23,040 nt of DNA from a virus, in the IMG/VR virus record IMGVR_UViG_3300033149_003182, positions 1 through 23,040 of that record; one strand, given 5' to 3'. Shown here in pieces: positions 8,647 to 19,543 of this stretch. The notes below the pieces were generated by a model that worked only from the letters and a program-made list of their open reading frames with translations, was not told the origin of the DNA and did no database searches. The stretch's first letter is position 1, and each line of letters starts with the position of its first letter. Both the position numbers and the translations under genes were made by a program.

Positions 8647-10356
8647 GTGGCGCTGCGTGTCAACGTCGTGTGCCGCAATCTGAACGACGACCGCGTGATA
8701 CCGCGTTTCGCGCGGTATCTGCGCGACGCGAATGGCTGGACGTTGAGCGCAGCGCCACAATCAGGGTTCGATGTGTATTACCTGAGCGGTTATTTTGAAG
8801 CCCAGGTATGCAAGCCGTGGCCGTCCGCGCCGGTGGCGGCGCTCTTTACCCATCGCGAGGAGGAGCCACCGGGCAATGCAAAGGCAAAACTGTTCGATGC
8901 GGTGGCGAAACGAGTGCAGTTGAGGGTAACAATGTGCAGGCTCTATGCCGGGCCGTTGAGTCAGTACGGGCCGACCATCCAGCCGCCGTTGCCGGTCGAG
9001 CGGGAGCGTTTTACTATCGCAGAGCAACGGAGTGGACAGCGGCCGGTAGTGGGTCTGGCCGGGTATACCTATCGCAACCATCGCAAGGGCGAGGACCTGG
9101 CGCGGGCATTGCTGGCCAGCAAGGCAGCCCAGGGGGTGGAGTGGCGTGCAAGCGGGCGCGGGTGGCCGGTGACGACGAAACAGTATGCCTGGCGGGATAT
9201 GCCCGAGTTTTATCAGGGCCTGGATATACTGGTAAGTACCTCGTTGGTGGAGGGCGGCCCAATGCCGCCGTTGGAGGCGCTGAGCTGTGGAGTGAGCGTG
9301 GTGGTGCCGCGCGGGGTGGGATTGCTCGATGAGTTGCCGGACGCATTGGGGATTCATCGTTACGAACGAGGGGATGCCGCCGATCTGGCACGGGCGCTAC
9401 GAGAGGCGCTGACAGCGCGGGGAGAGGTGAACCGGGAGACGCTGCGGGCGGTGACGGAGCGCTACACAGTGGAGGCATGGTGCGCAGCGCACGAGGCGGC
9501 GATGGAGAGCCTGGTGGCGGTGGATGGGGGATTGGCGAGTACCGGGGCAATAGCGGCCCCATTACGGGTGCTAGAGATCGAGGAGAGGCCGGAGCCAATA
9601 ATGCAGGAGACAGGCAGCAAGCGAGGCATCTATTGTGTGGCGTTCGGGGATCCAGCGCGCCGGTGTGCGCTGCGGATGATGGAAAGCGCAAAGACGTTTA
9701 TGCCGGATGTGCCGATCTGTCTGTGCGCGAAGAGGGGAATCGGGCCAGAGGACGTATTGATCAAACATCCAGACTCGGACATCGGCGGGCGGCGGGCCAA
9801 GCTGCGGGCCTACGAGCTGGCGCCGGCGGAGTGGCAGGCGGTGTTATATCTGGATGCTGACACGAAGGTCGTGGCTCCGATCCATCAGTATTTTGAGTGG
9901 ATCGAGAGCGGGTGGGAGTTTGTGATCTGCAAAGATCCCCATTTGATGGACACGATGCACGCCTTCAGGCGGCGGGGGAATAGCATCGAGCTGCGTGACA
10001 CGGAACGGCAGATTCGCACGCTGCACACGCTGCAATACAACGGCGGGGTGTGGGCGTTTGGGAGAAACAAGCGAGTGCAGGCATTTTTCGCACGCTGGCT
10101 GGCGGAATGGGAGCAATACGCTGGGCGCGATCAGGCGGCGCTAATCAGGGCAATGTATGCGGAACCGTTGAAGGTGCTACTGTTGGGGAACGAATGGAAC
10201 ACGTTCCCCAAGTACACGAAAGGGATTCATACGGCAGGGCTGATGCACTACCCTGGGGAGGCGCGACGGTGGAAGGGCAACATCCCGGGTCGGATTGACA
10301 GTCCGGCAGCGTGGACGGCGGTGCATGATTGGGAGAAAGGGAGGCAACGACGATGA
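8647..10356 (+). CDS. Two-domain glycosyltransferase (GT-B/GT4-like plus GT-A/GT8-like)
   Basis: This 569-aa protein appears to join two glycosyltransferases. Residues about 1-290 resemble GT-B enzymes of the GT4 type: VVGLAGYTYRNHRKGEDLAR (134-153), then LDILVSTSLVEGGPMPPLEA (192-211) with the donor-binding EGG motif, then GVSVVVPRGVGLLDELPD. Residues about 325-540 resemble GT8-type GT-A enzymes: VLYLDADTKV (399-408, metal-binding DxD at 403-405), YNGGVWAFGR (464-473), RDQAALI (494-500) and NEWNTFPKY (515-523). The two parts are linked by a low-complexity segment. Such enzymes transfer sugars from nucleotide donors. Position directly after the major capsid gene suggests a virion protein as acceptor, though host glycans or phage DNA are alternatives. 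The start is GTG at 8647, with AGGAGG five bases ahead. Confidence 0.8.
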   Translation: MALRVNVVCRNLNDDRVIPRFARYLRDANGWTLSAAPQSGFDVYYLSGYFEAQVCKPWPSAPVAALFTHREEEPPGNAKAKLFDAVAKRVQLRVTMCRLYAGPLSQYGPTIQPPLPVERERFTIAEQRSGQRPVVGLAGYTYRNHRKGEDLARALLASKAAQGVEWRASGRGWPVTTKQYAWRDMPEFYQGLDILVSTSLVEGGPMPPLEALSCGVSVVVPRGVGLLDELPDALGIHRYERGDAADLARALREALTARGEVNRETLRAVTERYTVEAWCAAHEAAMESLVAVDGGLASTGAIAAPLRVLEIEERPEPIMQETGSKRGIYCVAFGDPARRCALRMMESAKTFMPDVPICLCAKRGIGPEDVLIKHPDSDIGGRRAKLRAYELAPAEWQAVLYLDADTKVVAPIHQYFEWIESGWEFVICKDPHLMDTMHAFRRRGNSIELRDTERQIRTLHTLQYNGGVWAFGRNKRVQAFFARWLAEWEQYAGRDQAALIRAMYAEPLKVLLLGNEWNTFPKYTKGIHTAGLMHYPGEARRWKGNIPGRIDSPAAWTAVHDWEKGRQRR

Positions 10357-11114
10357 CGGTTCGGGAAAACGACCTGACGAAAGGAGTCGCGCGACCAGCC
10401 GTGATCATCGCAGCATTACGATCTGGGGGGACGTTTCTGGCGCATTGTTTGAGCAATCATTCGCAGGTGTTTTGTGGGCGGGGAGAACCGTTGCATCACC
10501 TCAGTCCCTGGTACACCGAATTGGGTATGAATCGCGGCAGGTTGCTGCGGGTGTTGCTGAACCAGACAGGCTACCAGGTGAGTATGTGCAAATTGACATA
10601 CATGCAGGCATTCCACCGGGAGATATGGCCTGATTTGGTCAGAATCAATCCTCTGGTGTTGTGGTTGCGACGTGAGAACGTCGTGCGCCAGGCGGTGAGT
10701 TTGTTGATCAACCACATGGCGCGGAAGGGACTATTGGAGCGACCTCAACACACGTTCGCTGCGCCGAAAAAGGCGTGTGCAGTGGAGATTTCGCCAGAAT
10801 TGGTGCTCAAGACGGCGCGGGGGCTGGTCGAGTGGGACCAGGATGCGCGGAAACGATTGGACGCACTAGCAGTTTGCGAATTGACATACGCTGAGGTGGT
10901 AGGCAGCGAGAGCAAGTCAGCCAACCGGCTGCCGACGCAAACGGGGCGAAGAATCTCCAAGTTTCTGGAGGTGCGCTATGAGGCGCTACGCTGTGACCTG
11001 AAGCGGGTGAATCCATATCCGCTGCGAGAGTTGTTGTCCAATTGGAGTGAGGTAGAGAAGGCGGTGCTGGGGAGTGAGCTTGCCGGGTTGCTGGAGGATG
11101 AATGGACATCCTAA
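10353..11114 (+). CDS. Sulfotransferase-like protein
   Basis: The 253-aa protein has the two PAPS-binding signatures of sulfotransferases. The 5'-phosphosulfate loop is AALRSGGTFLAHCLSNHSQ (20-38), matching the RSGTTFL-type loop followed by 'NHP' and then a GEPLH glutamate element. The 3'-phosphate motif is LVLWLRRENVVRQAVSLL (101-118), with Arg106/107 and Ser116. A late VRYEAL segment also matches the family. These enzymes move sulfate from PAPS to a hydroxyl or amino group of a sugar, lipid or protein. The middle loop has GG where TT/ST is usual, so the exact substrate class is unclear. The ATG at 10353 overlaps the preceding stop (ATGA) and has GGGAGG upstream; the end overlaps the methyltransferase start by 13 bases. 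Confidence 0.7.
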   Translation: MTVRENDLTKGVARPAVIIAALRSGGTFLAHCLSNHSQVFCGRGEPLHHLSPWYTELGMNRGRLLRVLLNQTGYQVSMCKLTYMQAFHREIWPDLVRINPLVLWLRRENVVRQAVSLLINHMARKGLLERPQHTFAAPKKACAVEISPELVLKTARGLVEWDQDARKRLDALAVCELTYAEVVGSESKSANRLPTQTGRRISKFLEVRYEALRCDLKRVNPYPLRELLSNWSEVEKAVLGSELAGLLEDEWTS

Positions 11115-11554
11115 ACCTGGGAGCAGGCAACCGGATCATTGAGGGAGCGATCAATCATGATCTACAGCGGTATCGGCCAGAGATTGACGTGGCCTGGGAT
11201 TTGAACGAGTTGCCATGGCCATGGGAGGATGAGTCGTTCGACAAGATACTGGCAATCGCTGTGTTGGAACATCTGCGGTTGAATTTGGTCGAATCAATGA
11301 ACGAGTGCTGGCGGCTGTTGCGTCCGGGGGGGGTATTGTATGCGAAACTGCCACACTGGCAAGCGGATGGTAGTTACATCGACCCAACACATTACTGGCG
11401 ATTTAGTGTCAAATCGCTGGACGTGTTTGATCCGGAGACAGAATATGGACAGCGGTACAGCTTCTATACCGGGCGCAAATGGCGGTTCATCAAACGGCCC
11501 AAGCTGAACGATGCCAAAACATCATTTGCGGCGACGCTGGAGGTGCGCAAGTGA
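11102..11554 (+). CDS. Class I SAM-dependent methyltransferase
   Basis: This short (150-aa) protein has a class I methyltransferase core of the Methyltransf_11 kind. Motif I is LNLGAGNRIIEG (4-15). The acidic post-I position is probably DVAWDLNELPWPWEDESFD, followed by KILAIAVLEHL, and motif III is RLLRPGGVLYAKLPHW. The HYWRFSVKSLDVF segment is often found in small sugar- or lipid-modifying methyltransferases of this group. It would methylate a small molecule or glycan using S-adenosylmethionine. Its start lies inside the end of the sulfotransferase gene and its stop overlaps the next start (GTGA), so the group is expressed together. Confidence 0.82.
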   Translation: MDILNLGAGNRIIEGAINHDLQRYRPEIDVAWDLNELPWPWEDESFDKILAIAVLEHLRLNLVESMNECWRLLRPGGVLYAKLPHWQADGSYIDPTHYWRFSVKSLDVFDPETEYGQRYSFYTGRKWRFIKRPKLNDAKTSFAATLEVRK

Positions 11555-12183
11555 GCAAGGGATCCTCGGGGTCGGGGATCGTATCGATCGGTGAGGATGC
11601 AGGGATCGAGGCAGGCGCGAAACGGGCGCGGATAGCGTTGACGACGGCGGGGCGGTATGGGCCACCACCATTTGGGAAGACGTTGTTTGTGCAACCCAAA
11701 ACGGCCGTGCCGTGGGATCTATTGTCGGTGGCGTACCATTTCCTGGAGCGCTGGGATGCAGCGGTGCCACTTTGGCGGTATGGGGTGCTGGCAGCGAATG
11801 TGGGGCGCGAGGCAGAGCGGGAACAAACGGCAGAGGTGGTAGGAGACTTACGGGTGCTGCTATATGCACATGAATTGCTGTTCGTACGGAATAATGCAGC
11901 CGGACGGGCGTTAATGGCGGTGTTCGCGGAGGAGTTGGAGGGGGGCGGGGAGGCGCGACTGGCATTTCTGCGAGCGTTCTTCCGGGTGAAACCGAAAATG
12001 TGTGTGCTGCCCCGCTCGTGGCTGGCAGAGGTCGCCAGGCGGACGTCAGAGGTGCAGCATCCACGCGGGCGACCGTTGGTGACGGTGGAGGTCGACCCGG
12101 GACGGTACGTGCAATGTTACGCTGGGGATGAGGAGCAGGTGCGGGAGCGGCTCCGCGCGCGGCGGAGCAGAAGGAGACGATAA
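11551..12183 (+). CDS. Unknown 210-aa protein at the end of the modification block
   Basis: I do not recognise this protein. It starts with a Gly/Ser-rich segment, SKGSSGSG. A conserved-looking middle follows, VPWDLLSVAYHFLERWDAAV (about 53-72), then LWRYGVLAANVGREAEREQT. Two helical pairs (VVGDLRVLLYAHELLFVRNN and ARLAFLRAFFRVKPKM) come next, and the protein ends in a strongly basic tail, RERLRARRSRRRR. No signal peptide, membrane helix or catalytic motif is evident. The paired helices could be a short TPR-like fold, as in some glycan-processing partners, but that is a guess. GTG at 11551 overlaps the methyltransferase stop (GTGA) with GGAGG upstream, so translation looks coupled to the enzymes. 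A role as adaptor for them or as a minor head protein is possible. Confidence 0.6.
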   Translation: MSKGSSGSGIVSIGEDAGIEAGAKRARIALTTAGRYGPPPFGKTLFVQPKTAVPWDLLSVAYHFLERWDAAVPLWRYGVLAANVGREAEREQTAEVVGDLRVLLYAHELLFVRNNAAGRALMAVFAEELEGGGEARLAFLRAFFRVKPKMCVLPRSWLAEVARRTSEVQHPRGRPLVTVEVDPGRYVQCYAGDEEQVRERLRARRSRRRR

Positions 12184-14322: not shown

Positions 14323-14730
14323 ATGGCAATGAACGGGAGTGACATTTTGCTGTTAGTGAATATCGGGACGCCGTCCGTGCCCGCCTACCAAGTGGTAGGA
14401 TCACAGCGGGACATGACGTTCGACGAGGCGACGGAGGAGATAGACGTCTCTTCGAAATCCAGCCGGGCCAAGCGGGTGCTGCCAGGGCGGTACAGTTCCA
14501 GTATCTCACTAGATGCGCTATACGTACCAACGCGCGACGATTACGATGCGCTAAAATCGGCAATGCGGAACGGCGAACTGATCCTAGTGGCACGCCAAGA
14601 GGAGGGCACGACCACAGAGACAGCCGATGCCCTTGTGACCTCACTGAGCGAATCTTTCCCCGACCAGGGAGAGGCGACGATCAGCGTGGCACTGACGATC
14701 GATGGGGAGTGGACGGAGGTCGGCAGCTAA
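14323..14730 (+). CDS. Major tail tube protein
   Basis: This 135-aa protein is a tube-forming major tail protein of the TP901-1/Phi-type family. It opens MAMNGSDILLLVNIGTPSVP, followed by VGSQRDMTFDEATEEIDVSS (the classic 'set of residue changes to sulphur/serine' hairpin region) and KRVLPGRYSSSISLDALYVP. It ends in SVALTIDGEWTEVGS. It has the best ribosome binding site in the region (GGAGG at 14311-14315), consistent with high copy number in the virion. It precedes the tail assembly chaperones in the normal order. Confidence 0.85.
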   Translation: MAMNGSDILLLVNIGTPSVPAYQVVGSQRDMTFDEATEEIDVSSKSSRAKRVLPGRYSSSISLDALYVPTRDDYDALKSAMRNGELILVARQEEGTTTETADALVTSLSESFPDQGEATISVALTIDGEWTEVGS

Positions 14731-15086
14731 TGCCCGGAGCACGAGGGGAGGCAGTAATACAGATCAGCGACCAGCGGGAAGTGCATGTGCTCTTCACGAA
14801 CCGCGCATTGGCGAACGCTGAGAAGATGCTACATCGGGGTATTCTCGCAATCGCTCAGGGATTTATGGATGGCGAGAGCGGCGTTTCCGACATCGCCACG
14901 CTGCTGCTGGCTGGGATGCAGGCCGCGCGCCAGGAGGCGCACACTGGTGGCCGCCAGATGACTCTCAATGACGCATTCGAGATCCTTGATGAGGTCGGAT
15001 TTGCCGCCGTCGCCGGCCCAGTGATGGAGGCTATATCCAGCGTCCTCAGCTATGGTAGTAGTAACGGTGGCGACCCAAACGGGTAG
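14730..15086 (+). CDS. Tail assembly chaperone 1 (gpG-like), 0-frame product
   Basis: The 118-aa protein starts at the ATG at 14730, which overlaps the major tail protein stop by one base (TAATG), with GGAGG upstream. A helical core contains NRALANAEKMLHRGILAIAQ and MTLNDAFEILDEVGF. By position, between the major tail protein and the tape measure, and by helical content, it is the first tail assembly chaperone (lambda gpG analogue), which binds the tape measure during tail assembly. The stop TAG (15084-15086) follows just after a -1 slippery heptamer (15074-15080). A minority of ribosomes is expected to continue into the next frame and make a 233-aa fusion with the second chaperone. Confidence 0.8.
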   Translation: MPGARGEAVIQISDQREVHVLFTNRALANAEKMLHRGILAIAQGFMDGESGVSDIATLLLAGMQAARQEAHTGGRQMTLNDAFEILDEVGFAAVAGPVMEAISSVLSYGSSNGGDPNG

Positions 15087-15119
15087 ATGAGCAGGCCCTC
15101 GATTTTGAGAGCCTGCTCA
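15074..15119 (+). promoter_or_regulatory. Programmed -1 ribosomal frameshift signal
   Basis: The heptamer CCCAAAC (15074-15080) sits in the chaperone 1 frame as C CCA AAC, the exact X XXY YYZ arrangement for tandem -1 slippage. After a 7-nt spacer, TGAGCAGGC (15088-15096) pairs perfectly with GCCTGCTCA (15111-15119), and an inner CTC/GAG pair (15098-15100 with 15107-15109) extends the stem past one mismatch to a GATTTT loop. The 0-frame stop (TAG, 15084) lies just downstream of the heptamer. Slippery site, spacer length, stimulatory hairpin and the open -1 frame all agree. Confidence 0.88.
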
Positions 15120-15430
15120 AAACAGCTCTGCGCTGCGGCGTGACCGTATCAGAGTTCTGGGCGATGACCCCACGCGAGACATTCGCTACCATCGATGCCG
15201 CCAACTGGCGCGCGGACGTACAGCGCCACCGGGATATATGGTTCGCGTGGCACATTGCCGCGCTATCGCGCGCGAAGCGGATGCCGCCATTGCAGCGGTT
15301 GCTGGGCGGAGGTCAGGCGAAAGCATTGGCTGGGAAGGCCCTGGAGAAGCGCAGGAGAGAACATCAAAAAATCAGGGCATCAATCAATGTCGATCTAATC
15401 AACGAGGTTATGAGGGACCGTGGGAGTTGA
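15080..15430 (+). CDS. Tail assembly chaperone 2 (gpT-like), made by -1 frameshift from chaperone 1
   Basis: In the -1 frame relative to chaperone 1, the reading frame is open from 15065 to the TGA at 15428-15430. After slippage on CCCAAAC it reads RVDEQALDFESLLKTALRCG, continues as VTVSEFWAMTPRETFATIDA and ends KIRASINVDLINEVMRDRGS. The fusion is 117 + 116 = 233 aa. No good independent start exists: the nearest, a GTG at 15140, has no clear ribosome binding site and would drop 20 conserved-looking residues. The EFWAMTPRET segment fits the tail chaperone 2 family. The end overlaps the tape measure start by 11 bases. Confidence 0.8.
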   Translation, partial: RVDEQALDFESLLKTALRCGVTVSEFWAMTPRETFATIDAANWRADVQRHRDIWFAWHIAALSRAKRMPPLQRLLGGGQAKALAGKALEKRRREHQKIRASINVDLINEVMRDRGS

Positions 15431-17678
15431 TGTCAGCTTAGGCCGCGCGAATGTCGCAATTCGCGCCACAATGGACCACCTCGACGGCGATCTGAATCAG
15501 GCGCGGGGGCGAGTCGATGGCGCAGTGCGCCAAATGACTCACGGCGCCAGTGAGGCGTTCCAAGGCCTGGGCCGCGCTGCCCTGGGTGGCATTGGCATCG
15601 CCTCCGGCGCGGTCGCCGGGCTGGCAGGGACGTTGGCGGCAATCACAATTGCCGCGGCCCCGATCCAGAATCTTCAGGATGCATTTGCCGGGCTGGCGGA
15701 GAGCGCCGGGATCGGAATGGATGATATGCTGGCAGCGCTGCAACGAAGCAGCTCGGGCATGATCGCCAACCGCGACCTAATGCTGTCGTTCAACCGGGCC
15801 GCGCAGTTGGTGAGTGTCGATTTCGCTACGCAGCTCCCGGAAGCGATGCAATATCTATCGCGGGTCTCAGCGTCCACTGGCCTCGATATGAAGTACCTCC
15901 TGGACAGCCTGACCCTCGGTGTGGGACGACTGTCGCCGAAAATTCTGGACAATCTGGCCATCCAGGTATCGCTCGCAGACGCTACGGAGGCCGCCGCCAT
16001 GATGTATGGCGTTGAGGCGGATGAGCTGAGCAATGTACAGATACAGGCCGGGATGATGAGCGTGGTCCTCGACCGGCTTGCGAAAAACACGGCCGCGATG
16101 CCTGATATAACCCAAACTGCGGCAGCCAGATTGGCACAGATGCGGACGACGTTCCAGAATCTGAAGGATACGATCGGGATGGCGTTTCTGCCTGTCCTGA
16201 ACACATTGTTAACGACAGTTGGCAATCTGGCAGAGCGGTTTCTGCCCCCGCTGGTTGATTTTCTCGAATCGTCCGTTGTGCCGGTGTTCGACACAGTCGC
16301 ATTCGCGATCGATTCATTTGTCGCTGCAATTATGTCCGGACAGAGTCCGATCGATGCTCTGACCGGAGTTCTCCGAGACATTGGCCTCGACAGTCTGGCC
16401 GACCGGATTGATGCAGTCGTTGCGGCCATAACGCCGTTCATCGAACAGATGACGACACTCTTGACACCGGTTGGAGAATGGATTCGGGAAAACGTCAGCT
16501 TGCAGGATGTCCTGCTGGTTCTCGGCGCTGCAATCGCAACGGTGGTATTGCCTGCGCTGTGGAGCGTGATCACCACCGTCGCACCAGTAGTTGCTGTTTT
16601 TCTGCTCGCGGTCGGGGCGGTGGCGGCGCTACGAACGGCGTGGGAAAACGATTTTCTCGGGATACGCACAGCGATCATAGAGGCGTGGGAGGGGGTGATC
16701 CTGCCGGCGCTGCAACAGTTGTGGGAGTGGCTGCAGGTCAACGTCCCGATTGCCATCCAGACCCTCTCTGACTTTTGGACAAACACACTGTTACCGGCGA
16801 TCCGGCAGGTATGGGAATGGGTGCAAAGCACACTATTGCCGATCCTCGCCGATCTGTGGAACTGGTTGCAGGAGAATGTTCCTGCAGCGATACGAACACT
16901 CTCCGATTTCTGGACAAACATCCTGTGGCCAGCGATTCAGGCGGTTGTTGGATTTTTCCAGAACAGCGTTATGCCAGTGCTCGCGGAGGTCGCGAGCGTG
17001 GCCAGCGCTGTGCTTGGGGCGGCCATTGAGACAGTGTCGGCGATATGGGAATCAATCCTGTTGCCGGCGATTCAGATCGTGTGGGGATTTTTTCAGGACA
17101 GCATCATACCGGTAATGCAGGCTGTGGCCGAAGTGGCAGGAGCCATACTGGGCAAGGCGGTCGAGGCGCTTGCCGGCCTCTGGCAGAATGTGTTGTGGCC
17201 CGCGCTAGAGGCAGTGTGGGACGTGATCAAGGCCAATGTACTGCCGATATTTCGAGAGATCGCGGACTTTGTCAGGCAGAATATTGGCCCAGCATTCGAG
17301 CAATTGGCCGAGCGTGTTCTGCCGCCGATCCGGGTGGCATTTGAGGGAATCTCCGGGGCGATCTCGGACGTGGTGGGGTGGCTTCGGGACCTGGCCAGCA
17401 ACATTGGCTCAATAGAGCTCCCTGATTGGCTGACTCCGGGCAGCCCAACGCCATTTGAGCTCGGATTGCGAGGGATCGGAGATGCGATGCGCAGGCTGAC
17501 CCAAATGCAGATTCCACAGCTCTCCTCAGAGCTGCGACAAGTATATGAGGTAGAGGCGGTAACTAGGCCAGACAATGGCGGAGGTGGGCGAAGGCAACAG
17601 GTGGTAATTTACGGACTGACACTCGAGGGTGTGCAGGATCGCCAGGGATTATTGGCTGAGTTGCAGGCATTGATATGA
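15420..17678 (+). CDS. Tape measure protein
   Basis: The 752-aa protein has the expected position, size and composition: long helical stretches, hydrophobic segments (about 56-84, AALGGIGIASGAVAGLAGTL; about 361-405, LVLGAAIATVVLPALWSVIT) and repeats. Five repeats with a Trp every 45 residues run from about residue 408 to 632 (W408, W453, W498, W543, W588), with a WxxxLLPAI-like core. The protein sets tail length and is threaded through the tube; at about 0.15 nm per residue it predicts a tail of roughly 110 nm. No peptidase or lysozyme domain is evident. The GTG start at 15420 overlaps the chaperone 2 end and has GAGGG close by. The end overlaps the next start (ATGA). Confidence 0.92.
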   Translation: MGVDVSLGRANVAIRATMDHLDGDLNQARGRVDGAVRQMTHGASEAFQGLGRAALGGIGIASGAVAGLAGTLAAITIAAAPIQNLQDAFAGLAESAGIGMDDMLAALQRSSSGMIANRDLMLSFNRAAQLVSVDFATQLPEAMQYLSRVSASTGLDMKYLLDSLTLGVGRLSPKILDNLAIQVSLADATEAAAMMYGVEADELSNVQIQAGMMSVVLDRLAKNTAAMPDITQTAAARLAQMRTTFQNLKDTIGMAFLPVLNTLLTTVGNLAERFLPPLVDFLESSVVPVFDTVAFAIDSFVAAIMSGQSPIDALTGVLRDIGLDSLADRIDAVVAAITPFIEQMTTLLTPVGEWIRENVSLQDVLLVLGAAIATVVLPALWSVITTVAPVVAVFLLAVGAVAALRTAWENDFLGIRTAIIEAWEGVILPALQQLWEWLQVNVPIAIQTLSDFWTNTLLPAIRQVWEWVQSTLLPILADLWNWLQENVPAAIRTLSDFWTNILWPAIQAVVGFFQNSVMPVLAEVASVASAVLGAAIETVSAIWESILLPAIQIVWGFFQDSIIPVMQAVAEVAGAILGKAVEALAGLWQNVLWPALEAVWDVIKANVLPIFREIADFVRQNIGPAFEQLAERVLPPIRVAFEGISGAISDVVGWLRDLASNIGSIELPDWLTPGSPTPFELGLRGIGDAMRRLTQMQIPQLSSELRQVYEVEAVTRPDNGGGGRRQQVVIYGLTLEGVQDRQGLLAELQALI
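16641..17315 (+). repeat. Five 135-bp (45-residue) repeats inside the tape measure gene
   Basis: Conserved TGG (Trp) codons start at 16641, 16776, 16911, 17046 and 17181, exactly 135 bp apart. The matching peptide cores are WENDFLGIRTAI, WTNTLLPAIRQVW, WTNILWPAIQAVV, WESILLPAIQIVW and WQNVLWPALEAVW. Copies 2 and 3 are the most alike at the DNA level (for example TTTTGGACAAACAC against TTCTGGACAAACAT), suggesting recent duplication. The first copy is the most diverged. Confidence 0.75.
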
Positions 17679-19543
17679 TCACATCGATTGTGAGTTATGA
17701 CGGCAACTCATTTGCGCCGGATTACGAGGTGGGATTCGTCACGGGATCGGAGCCACGGCTGCCTGGCACATCAGTCAAAACGCTGGAGCGGATTGGGGCA
17801 TGGCCGGTAATCGTAGCGTTGCGGCGGAAACCGCAGAAACTGGCATTGCTCATCCGCATTGTTGGCAGCGACCGAGACACTCTGCGAACGCAGACGTTCC
17901 AATGGTTCGACCCGGAGGACGAGACACCCAGGACGCTGGTGGGCGAGAACCACGCCGGCATCCAGATGTCGGTGGATGCGTTGTGTGAGGAACTGCGCAT
18001 CTACGGTGACCAGCGTCACGACACAGTTTTCGTGGTGACGATGGTAGTAGACGGCGATGTGCGCTGGCGGGCGAGTGAGGAGACGTCAGACGAGTGGAAC
18101 ATTACGGCGAGCGGGCAGACGAACACGATCAACAACACTGGGGAGGATGATGCGTACCCGACGCTGGAGATCAAGCCGACATCGTCTAAGAGCGGCGGAT
18201 ACGACTACAAACGTTACTGCTTGGTGACTTGGCGAGCGATCAATGACGGCTCGAATTATCCCGTGCGGCTGGGGCCACTGGACACAGCGACGCTGGTCAG
18301 CGGCGGGAAAATGCAGGCCGATGGTGACGACCTGCGGGTGTTCGTTGATGGCACTGAAGTGGCACGCCACCTGGTCGCTATGAATGATGCTAATACATAC
18401 ATCTGGTTTTCGGCGAATTGGAAACCAGCCCCGGCGCTGGAGCTGACCGCATCGATTGCCGGGAGTGGGACGGTGGACAGCATTGAGCTTGACGACGCTG
18501 ATGAGATGGATAAATTGGACGCGAGCGGGTTCGTGCGCGTAGGCAGTGAGGTGCTCTCATATTCTACCAAGGATGTGACAAACAAGCGCCTGACCGGCAT
18601 AGAGCGAGCAGTATGGGGAACCTCGGCAGCGGCACACAGCGCGGGTGACGCTGTCTACTGGATGCAACACGAGGTGGTGATCGTCTATGGCAACGCCTCA
18701 GCCACCGCCCCAAACATAGCAGACACGGAGCCGGTATTTGAGCTCGATCTCAGCTCGAATACCGAGTGGGTGTTCGAGGAGTTTGGCGAAACTGCCAGCA
18801 GGCCAGCGTCGTGGCAGCAGTGGGGGAACCTCACCCTATCTGGTCGTGGTGGAACATATTCCGCATCTCAACGAACGCTGGCCTCGCCGTACACCGTTGC
18901 TGGGGCGTGGCTTTCGGAGCTGCACGGCAACGCATACGGCTGGAGCCTGCACAATCCATGCGGGATCGTCAATGCGGCCTGGGCAGACGGGTACAAACGA
19001 GCGCAGGTAAAGGAAGATTTTCTGGTCCACCTGATGTATTTGCTGCGAGATGACGCATACTGGACATGGCAAGCGACGCTGACAGATCCATCAGCAGATG
19101 ATGCCTGGGAATCCTGGTCTGAGGCGGCTGCTGCATCGGATTGGGATCCTGCCAGCGAATTAGCGATCGCGGCATATTTCTATGCGCAGGATGTCGAGGT
19201 AGGAACAGTGACCATCTCGCTAAACTCGACCGAGACGCCAGTCGCATCAATCGGGAGTGAATCGGGAAATTACACATTGTCCGCGACAATCACAAATGAG
19301 ACAACCGGTGAGGCGATGGCGATTTCGTTCGAGATGACAGTCAATGAGACACTACGGATCATCACTGATCCAGAGAATCTGGCAGTCATGTATCTGGCTG
19401 ATAACTCGAATCAATTCCAGGCGGTGACACCATCGGTAGCGCGGCGACTGCGATTGGTCCCGGGGAACAATGTGCTGCGGTTCGATGATACCGGGACGGT
19501 GGCTGTAACGCTGACAACGGTGTTTCGCAGGCGGTACTACTGA
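17675..19543 (+). CDS. Distal tail protein (Dit-like) with inserted domains
   Basis: The 622-aa protein directly follows the tape measure, the normal place of the distal tail protein. The N-terminal 130 residues fit a siphovirus Dit: VSYDGNSFAPDYEVGFVTGS, followed by a segment with LIRIVGSDRDTLRTQTFQWF. The C-terminal end (about 560-622, ITDPENLAVMYLADNSNQ, then RLRLVPGNNVLRFDDTGTVA and FRRRYY) closes the Dit/tail fold. In between is a region like DUF2341 (about 175-250 DDLRVFVDGTEVARHLVAMN and 332-365 EVVIVYGNASATAPNIADTE). It is split by an insert at about 258-331 (GSEVLSYSTKDVTNKRLTGI, then TSAAAHSAGDAVYW). Such inserts often bind carbohydrate or help host attachment. Usual Dit proteins are 250-300 aa. 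The ATG at 17675 overlaps the upstream stop. Confidence 0.75.
   Translation: MITSIVSYDGNSFAPDYEVGFVTGSEPRLPGTSVKTLERIGAWPVIVALRRKPQKLALLIRIVGSDRDTLRTQTFQWFDPEDETPRTLVGENHAGIQMSVDALCEELRIYGDQRHDTVFVVTMVVDGDVRWRASEETSDEWNITASGQTNTINNTGEDDAYPTLEIKPTSSKSGGYDYKRYCLVTWRAINDGSNYPVRLGPLDTATLVSGGKMQADGDDLRVFVDGTEVARHLVAMNDANTYIWFSANWKPAPALELTASIAGSGTVDSIELDDADEMDKLDASGFVRVGSEVLSYSTKDVTNKRLTGIERAVWGTSAAAHSAGDAVYWMQHEVVIVYGNASATAPNIADTEPVFELDLSSNTEWVFEEFGETASRPASWQQWGNLTLSGRGGTYSASQRTLASPYTVAGAWLSELHGNAYGWSLHNPCGIVNAAWADGYKRAQVKEDFLVHLMYLLRDDAYWTWQATLTDPSADDAWESWSEAAAASDWDPASELAIAAYFYAQDVEVGTVTISLNSTETPVASIGSESGNYTLSATITNETTGEAMAISFEMTVNETLRIITDPENLAVMYLADNSNQFQAVTPSVARRLRLVPGNNVLRFDDTGTVAVTLTTVFRRRYY

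Follow-up and report, generated by a model that had tools for sequence, protein, structure and literature searches.

A putative programmed -1 frameshift signal joining two tail assembly chaperone genes in a siphovirus-type genome and its relatives

The two tail assembly chaperone genes of an IMG/VR virus record are very probably joined by a programmed -1 ribosomal frameshift of the lambda G-GT type, a reading that draws on comparison of sequences and to which a probability of about 0.96 is assigned. The window, the whole stretch of DNA analysed here, comprises 23,040 bases of that record, and the features that bear on the junction are collected in Table 1.

Table 1. Features of the chaperone junction and its flanking genes (positions in the window)
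Feature	Position	Strand	Basis or remark
Major tail tube protein gene	14323..14730	+	PF06199 Phage_tail_2, E 2e-16; phrog_1407, E 3e-24; directly upstream of chaperone 1
Tail assembly chaperone 1 (gp1), frame 0 product, 118 aa	14730..15086	+	PF11836, AlphaFold, fold matches
Chaperone 2 (gp2), open -1 frame	15065..15430	+	phrog_19318, E 3e-15; fusion part begins 15074
Slippery heptamer C_CCA_AAC	15074..15080	+	frame 0 of chaperone 1; reading GAC CCA AAC GGG TAG
Spacer, 7 nt	15081..15087	+	contains the frame 0 stop, 15084-15086
Stimulatory stem-loop (putative)	15088..15119	+	15088-15096/15111-15119, mismatch, 15098-15101/15106-15109, 4-nt loop
GTG, first in-frame start of chaperone 2, unlikely to be used	15140..15142	+	without Shine-Dalgarno sequence; residue 23 of gp2
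Tape measure protein gene	15420..17678	+	phrog_58, E 2e-21; directly downstream of chaperone 2

Slip site and gene neighbourhood

In the proposed model, most ribosomes would read chaperone 1 and terminate at 15084-15086. At the heptamer, the P-site tRNA on CCA and the A-site tRNA on AAC would move back one base onto CCC AAA, with the stem-loop 7 nt ahead of the slipping ribosome, and a minority of ribosomes would shift and continue in the -1 frame. The product would be a fusion of about 233 residues, running from chaperone 1 to ...DPN and then through RVDEQ... into chaperone 2, and made at a low, constant ratio. If the roles follow those in lambda, unfused chaperone 1 would coat the tape measure protein, and tail tube subunits would be recruited by the chaperone 2 portion of the fusion. 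We infer the occurrence of the slip, its rate and the roles of the chaperones as parts of this model. The model would fix the annotation across this phage family as one gene with a frameshifted long product, the second chaperone of which is otherwise mis-called from an internal start.

The sequence-only reading had placed a CCCAAAC heptamer in the correct frame within 15074-15119, and its frame and coordinates are exact when the sequence is read in the frame of 14730-15086. The 7-nt spacer and the -1 frame that it reported as open from 15065 are likewise present in the sequence, the open frame ending at the TGA at 15430. Within chaperone 1 gene bodies, in-phase X_XXY_YYZ heptamers occur at a rate of 0.0016 per codon, and the chance of finding one in the 7-codon overlap is about 1%. 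There are 19 such heptamers in the 7032 codons of the plus strand genes of the window, and only the one at 15074 combines a position at a gene end, more than 100 open -1 codons, a downstream gene lacking a start codon and a strong hairpin. The heptamer mutant put forward in the sequence-only reading (CGCAGAC) changes the frame 0 protein too.

Profile matches in the window place the chaperone pair between the tail tube and tape measure genes. The morphogenesis region is of the ordinary siphovirus type, with the order terminase, portal-like (called from position and length only), prohead protease, capsid, head-tail connectors, tail tube, chaperones, tape measure, Dit-like and tail tip. Between the major capsid and head-tail adaptor genes (8647-12183) are glycosyltransferase, sulfotransferase-like and methyltransferase genes together with unknown genes, which perhaps serve in modification of the capsid or the host surface.

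Chaperone identities and the start of chaperone 2

Assignment of the two genes as tail chaperones, as the sequence-only reading had it, is supported by matches of relatives to PF11836 and PF09550 and by the tail tube and tape measure flanks. The match of gp1 in the window to PF11836 Phage_TAC_11 (GTA gp10) is weak (E 8e-4, 19.9 bits versus a curated cut-off of 27.8), while 54 of 61 gp1 relatives match the profile at E <= 0.01 and relative L029 scores 31.1 bits, above the cut-off. The structure of gp1 was predicted by AlphaFold with a pLDDT of 91, and its fold resembles those of predicted phage tail assembly chaperones, including gp1 of Caulobacter phage Kronos, with modest scores; searches of the PDB with this structure (Foldseek, VIA-align) gave no meaningful match. 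All 56 members of the gp2 family match phrog_19318. The gp2 of the window reaches 15.9 bits against PF09550 Phage_TAC_6 (curated cut-off, 23.4), 13 of 56 relatives match that profile at E <= 0.01, and the homologous gp2 of Kronos is barely above the cut-off at 23.5 bits. A whole-genome search with PF09550 also gave a match above the cut-off in the assembly containing relative L132. By these matches, the pair is provisionally assigned to the TAC_11/TAC_6 (GTA gp10-like) chaperones, with a predicted -1 signal of the lambda G-GT type.

Rather than being fused to chaperone 1, chaperone 2 could be made separately, ribosomes initiating internally or re-initiating beyond the chaperone 1 stop, at the GTG at 15140 or a later ATG, with the heptamer incidental. 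The GTG is available, and gene callers pick such starts in relatives. Its use is unlikely since no Shine-Dalgarno sequence is found in the preceding CAGCTCTGCGCTGCGGC, and initiation there would cut off both L15, A18, L19 and G22, which are nearly or fully invariant in the family alignment, and the first helix, which the predicted gp2 structure (pLDDT 87) places with confidence at residues 11-20. These observations bear out the claim that the second chaperone has no good start of its own. A -1-frame start near the junction is absent from 54 of 72 homologous loci (described below), and just 4 loci offer a start together with a Shine-Dalgarno-like sequence. Separate synthesis would also leave the conservation of the heptamer and stem unexplained, and it is considered very improbable. 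The automatic mis-placement of the chaperone 2 start that had been predicted is seen in annotated relatives, where the start lies past the slip site by 72 nt in Kronos (L002), 114 nt in Pben1 (L004) and 120 nt in Psul1 (L135), in each case beyond part of the conserved N-terminal region.

Heptamer and stem-loop across homologous junctions

Searches with the tail tube protein yielded 72 distinct homologous junctions. Scans of viral_contigs with gp1 or gp2 as single proteins found no relatives, a DNA search of phage records gave no match, and distant gp2 sequences varied too much for their alignment to be scanned. The contig bins containing the junctions include Anaerolineaceae, Anaerolineales, Dehalococcoidia, Zixibacteria and Synergistales. 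Judged from these bins, to which prophage contigs are assigned with some uncertainty, most hosts of this little-studied phage family are probably Chloroflexota.

Relative to gp1, gp2 lies in the -1 frame at all 72 junctions. An in-phase X_XXY_YYZ heptamer is present in the overlap of 71 of them and within the last 12 codons of gp1 in 70, versus 1.9% expected from the heptamer rate in the rest of gene 1. The heptamers, as chosen by script, are CCCAAAC (43), AAAAAAC (11), CCCAAAT (4), CCCAAAA (4), CCCCCCA (3) and GGGAAAC (2). CCCCCCG, AAATTTG and CCCTTTA occur once each, as do the non-canonical CCCTTAG of L053 and the CCCGGGG of L044, which is overlapped by a CCCCCCG one codon upstream of it. 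The coordinates first described are thus exact for the window, but the heptamer itself is CCCAAAC in just 43 of the 72 members. Parsimony on a tree of the flanking proteins, which was built quickly and has many weak branches, requires at least 23 heptamer changes, all but one of which end on another slippery heptamer; the sole change that leaves the X_XXY_YYZ class is that leading to L053. From the sequences compared, it is slipperiness rather than a particular sequence that is conserved, and slippage itself appears to be under selection, for which the heptamer changes are the strongest evidence. Together with the universal -1 phasing and the covariation of the downstream stem, the retention of a slippery heptamer through base changes supports the earlier proposal of a -1 frameshift signal joining the chaperones.

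Six loci (L006-L008 and L012-L014) had been considered to carry a single long ORF across the junction, which proved to be an artefact of choosing the longest ORF; homology gives the usual -1 arrangement. The only junction without X_XXY_YYZ, in L053 (4126-4132), has C_CCT_TAG, which puts a stop codon in the A site. A strong stem with GGCCAGCAAAG-type arms comes after it, and the junction is possibly a shifty-stop variant.

A message in the -1 frame could alternatively arise by transcriptional slippage on a homopolymer, as the runs of six to seven A or C in a few relatives (AAAAAAC, CCCCCCG) might suggest. In the window and most relatives the heptamer is CCCAAAC, whose runs are only three long, and the base changes preserve tandem tRNA re-pairing, not a homopolymer. 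With a downstream stem that covaries as well, slippage of the polymerase is exceedingly improbable, and ribosomal frameshifting is the preferred explanation.

The perfect 9-bp stem extended past one mismatch, as first described from the window, was confirmed by folding and by its coordinates: beyond the C15097/A15110 mismatch, 15098-15100 pair with 15107-15109 and G15101 pairs with U15106. The stem is present in the minimum-energy structure of the 70 nt after the heptamer (-32.1 kcal/mol), which has a z of -4.0 versus dinucleotide shuffles, none of 200 being as good, and a z of -2.8 versus recodings that preserve the -1-frame protein. No Rfam family scored above threshold, and a search for terminators returned no such site at the junction, so the stem is not a simple terminator.

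In the 24 gapless sequences, 9 of 13 stem pairs have two-sided changes, a result reached in none of 500 shuffles, a control that leaves relatedness in place. Paired cells in the gapless junctions amount to 90.4%, versus 78.7 +/- 1.3% when the 3' letters are dealt among sequences. They fall to 39-48% in slid registers, a control that keeps relatedness and favours the true register on percentage paired since the structure was derived from the same sequences. It might be argued that the stem-loop is a by-product of gp2 coding (Q-E-x...L-L) and that the heptamer alone matters, as conservation of the coded residues lets arms taken from different sequences pair at 74-79%, and a clear stem is missing in some members. 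Pairing within sequences is far higher (86-90%), however, the double changes affect 9 of 13 pairs, and the downstream RNA is more stable than protein-preserving recodings across the family (mean z -2.2; below -2 in 44 of 72 junctions). That the stem merely follows from the coding is improbable, and a stimulatory role is preferred.

Spacers of 7 or 8 nt are the commonest in the family, and the covarying helix falls in the range of 5-8 nt after the heptamer that is expected of a stimulatory stem-loop. At about 10 of the 72 junctions (L045, L048, L049, L120 and L131 among them) the expected place holds no convincing stem, and the predicted stem is a common, not universal, element of the family. 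In L118 (2186-2260) and L125 (3761-3860), GC-rich palindromic inserts encoding proline-rich repeats directly follow the slip site within the -1 linker, and these may substitute for the usual stem.

Known systems, the A-site codon and other slippery sites

Frameshifting between tail chaperones is already known in kind, and the A-site codon is the one unusual feature here. In lambda G-GT, as in the window, two overlapping genes lie between tail tube and tape measure, gene 1 carries the -1 heptamer close to its end, gene 2 lacks its own start, and a minor fusion product is expected. The lambda heptamer is GGGAAAG, whereas the family described here mostly has CCCAAAC and its proteins probably belong to the TAC_11/TAC_6 (GTA gp10-like) families. 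The -1 shift between tail chaperones is conserved in long-tailed phages, and some tailed-phage shifts apparently need no stimulator (PMC5009743), whereas a strong, conserved stem-loop lies 7 nt downstream here. In phages of Rhodobacter capsulatus, frameshifting in the chaperone genes has been described as usual (PMC8601537), and GeneTack work gave 6-7% frameshifting for two phage chaperone genes (PMC3711429). Paracoccus phages Pben1, Psul1 and Pthi1 and Caulobacter phage Kronos share with the window GTA-type tail chaperones, an identical gene order, a homologous gp2 and a -1 overlap with an in-phase slippery heptamer, which is G_GGA_AAG in Pben1 and Psul1, G_GGA_AAC in Pthi1 and C_CCC_CCG in Kronos. 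The proteins are only 25-30% identical, and the records consulted carry no frameshift annotation. The transposase signals of IS3/IS1 elements are alike in combining X_XXY_YYZ with downstream structure and in their low-efficiency A_AAC motifs, AAAAAAC and GGGAAAC being used by insertion sequences, and differ in that they serve transposase fusion, not tail assembly (PMC4066793).

A point against frameshifting is that C_CCA_AAC requires non-cognate re-pairing in the A site, from AAC to AAA. Bacterial ribosomes, those of E. coli among them, tolerate this re-pairing poorly, and the best motif in E. coli is C_CCA_AAG, at up to 54% (PMC4066793). Expectations drawn from E. coli may not hold for the phage host. 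Across the 72 junctions the A-site codon is AAC in 56, AAT in 4, AAA in 4 and AAG in none, whereas the family's genes use AAG 582, AAC 336, AAA 322 and AAT 254 times. The P-site triplet varies (CCC, AAA, GGG) while the A-site AAC stays. This preference is suggestive only, because the counts are non-independent, with about 13 YYYZ changes on the tree. It is tentatively proposed that either weak motifs with a strong stem are selected for a small fusion ratio, or Chloroflexota ribosomes and tRNAs obey another slippage rule, under which non-cognate AAC-to-AAA re-pairing is well tolerated. Tuning to a low fusion ratio with help from the stem is the simplest reading of the A-site AAC; the hosts may, however, slip by another rule. 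Since heptamer and stem vary independently in the 72-junction data set, the bacterial slippage rule of cognate A-site re-pairing becomes testable outside E. coli.

A further C_CCA_AAC in the window (18709-18715) was considered as a second frameshift site and rejected, as its -1 frame runs for only 10 codons before a stop and four relatives do not preserve the peptide. It is in phase within the Dit-like tail gene (17675-19543) and is followed by a stable fold (-26.6 kcal/mol); the heptamer is probably there by chance. At 1122-1131, G_GGG_GGA stands right before the ATGATG at which a coiled-coil ORF (844-1131) overlaps a C39-like peptidase gene (1128-1739), with a -1 frame open for 205 codons, and a frameshift there is unneeded because the peptidase gene has its own ATG. 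CCCAAAC occurs 12 times in the whole window versus 3 expected from dinucleotide shuffles, and 9 of these lie on the minus strand and read GTTTGGG on the plus strand.
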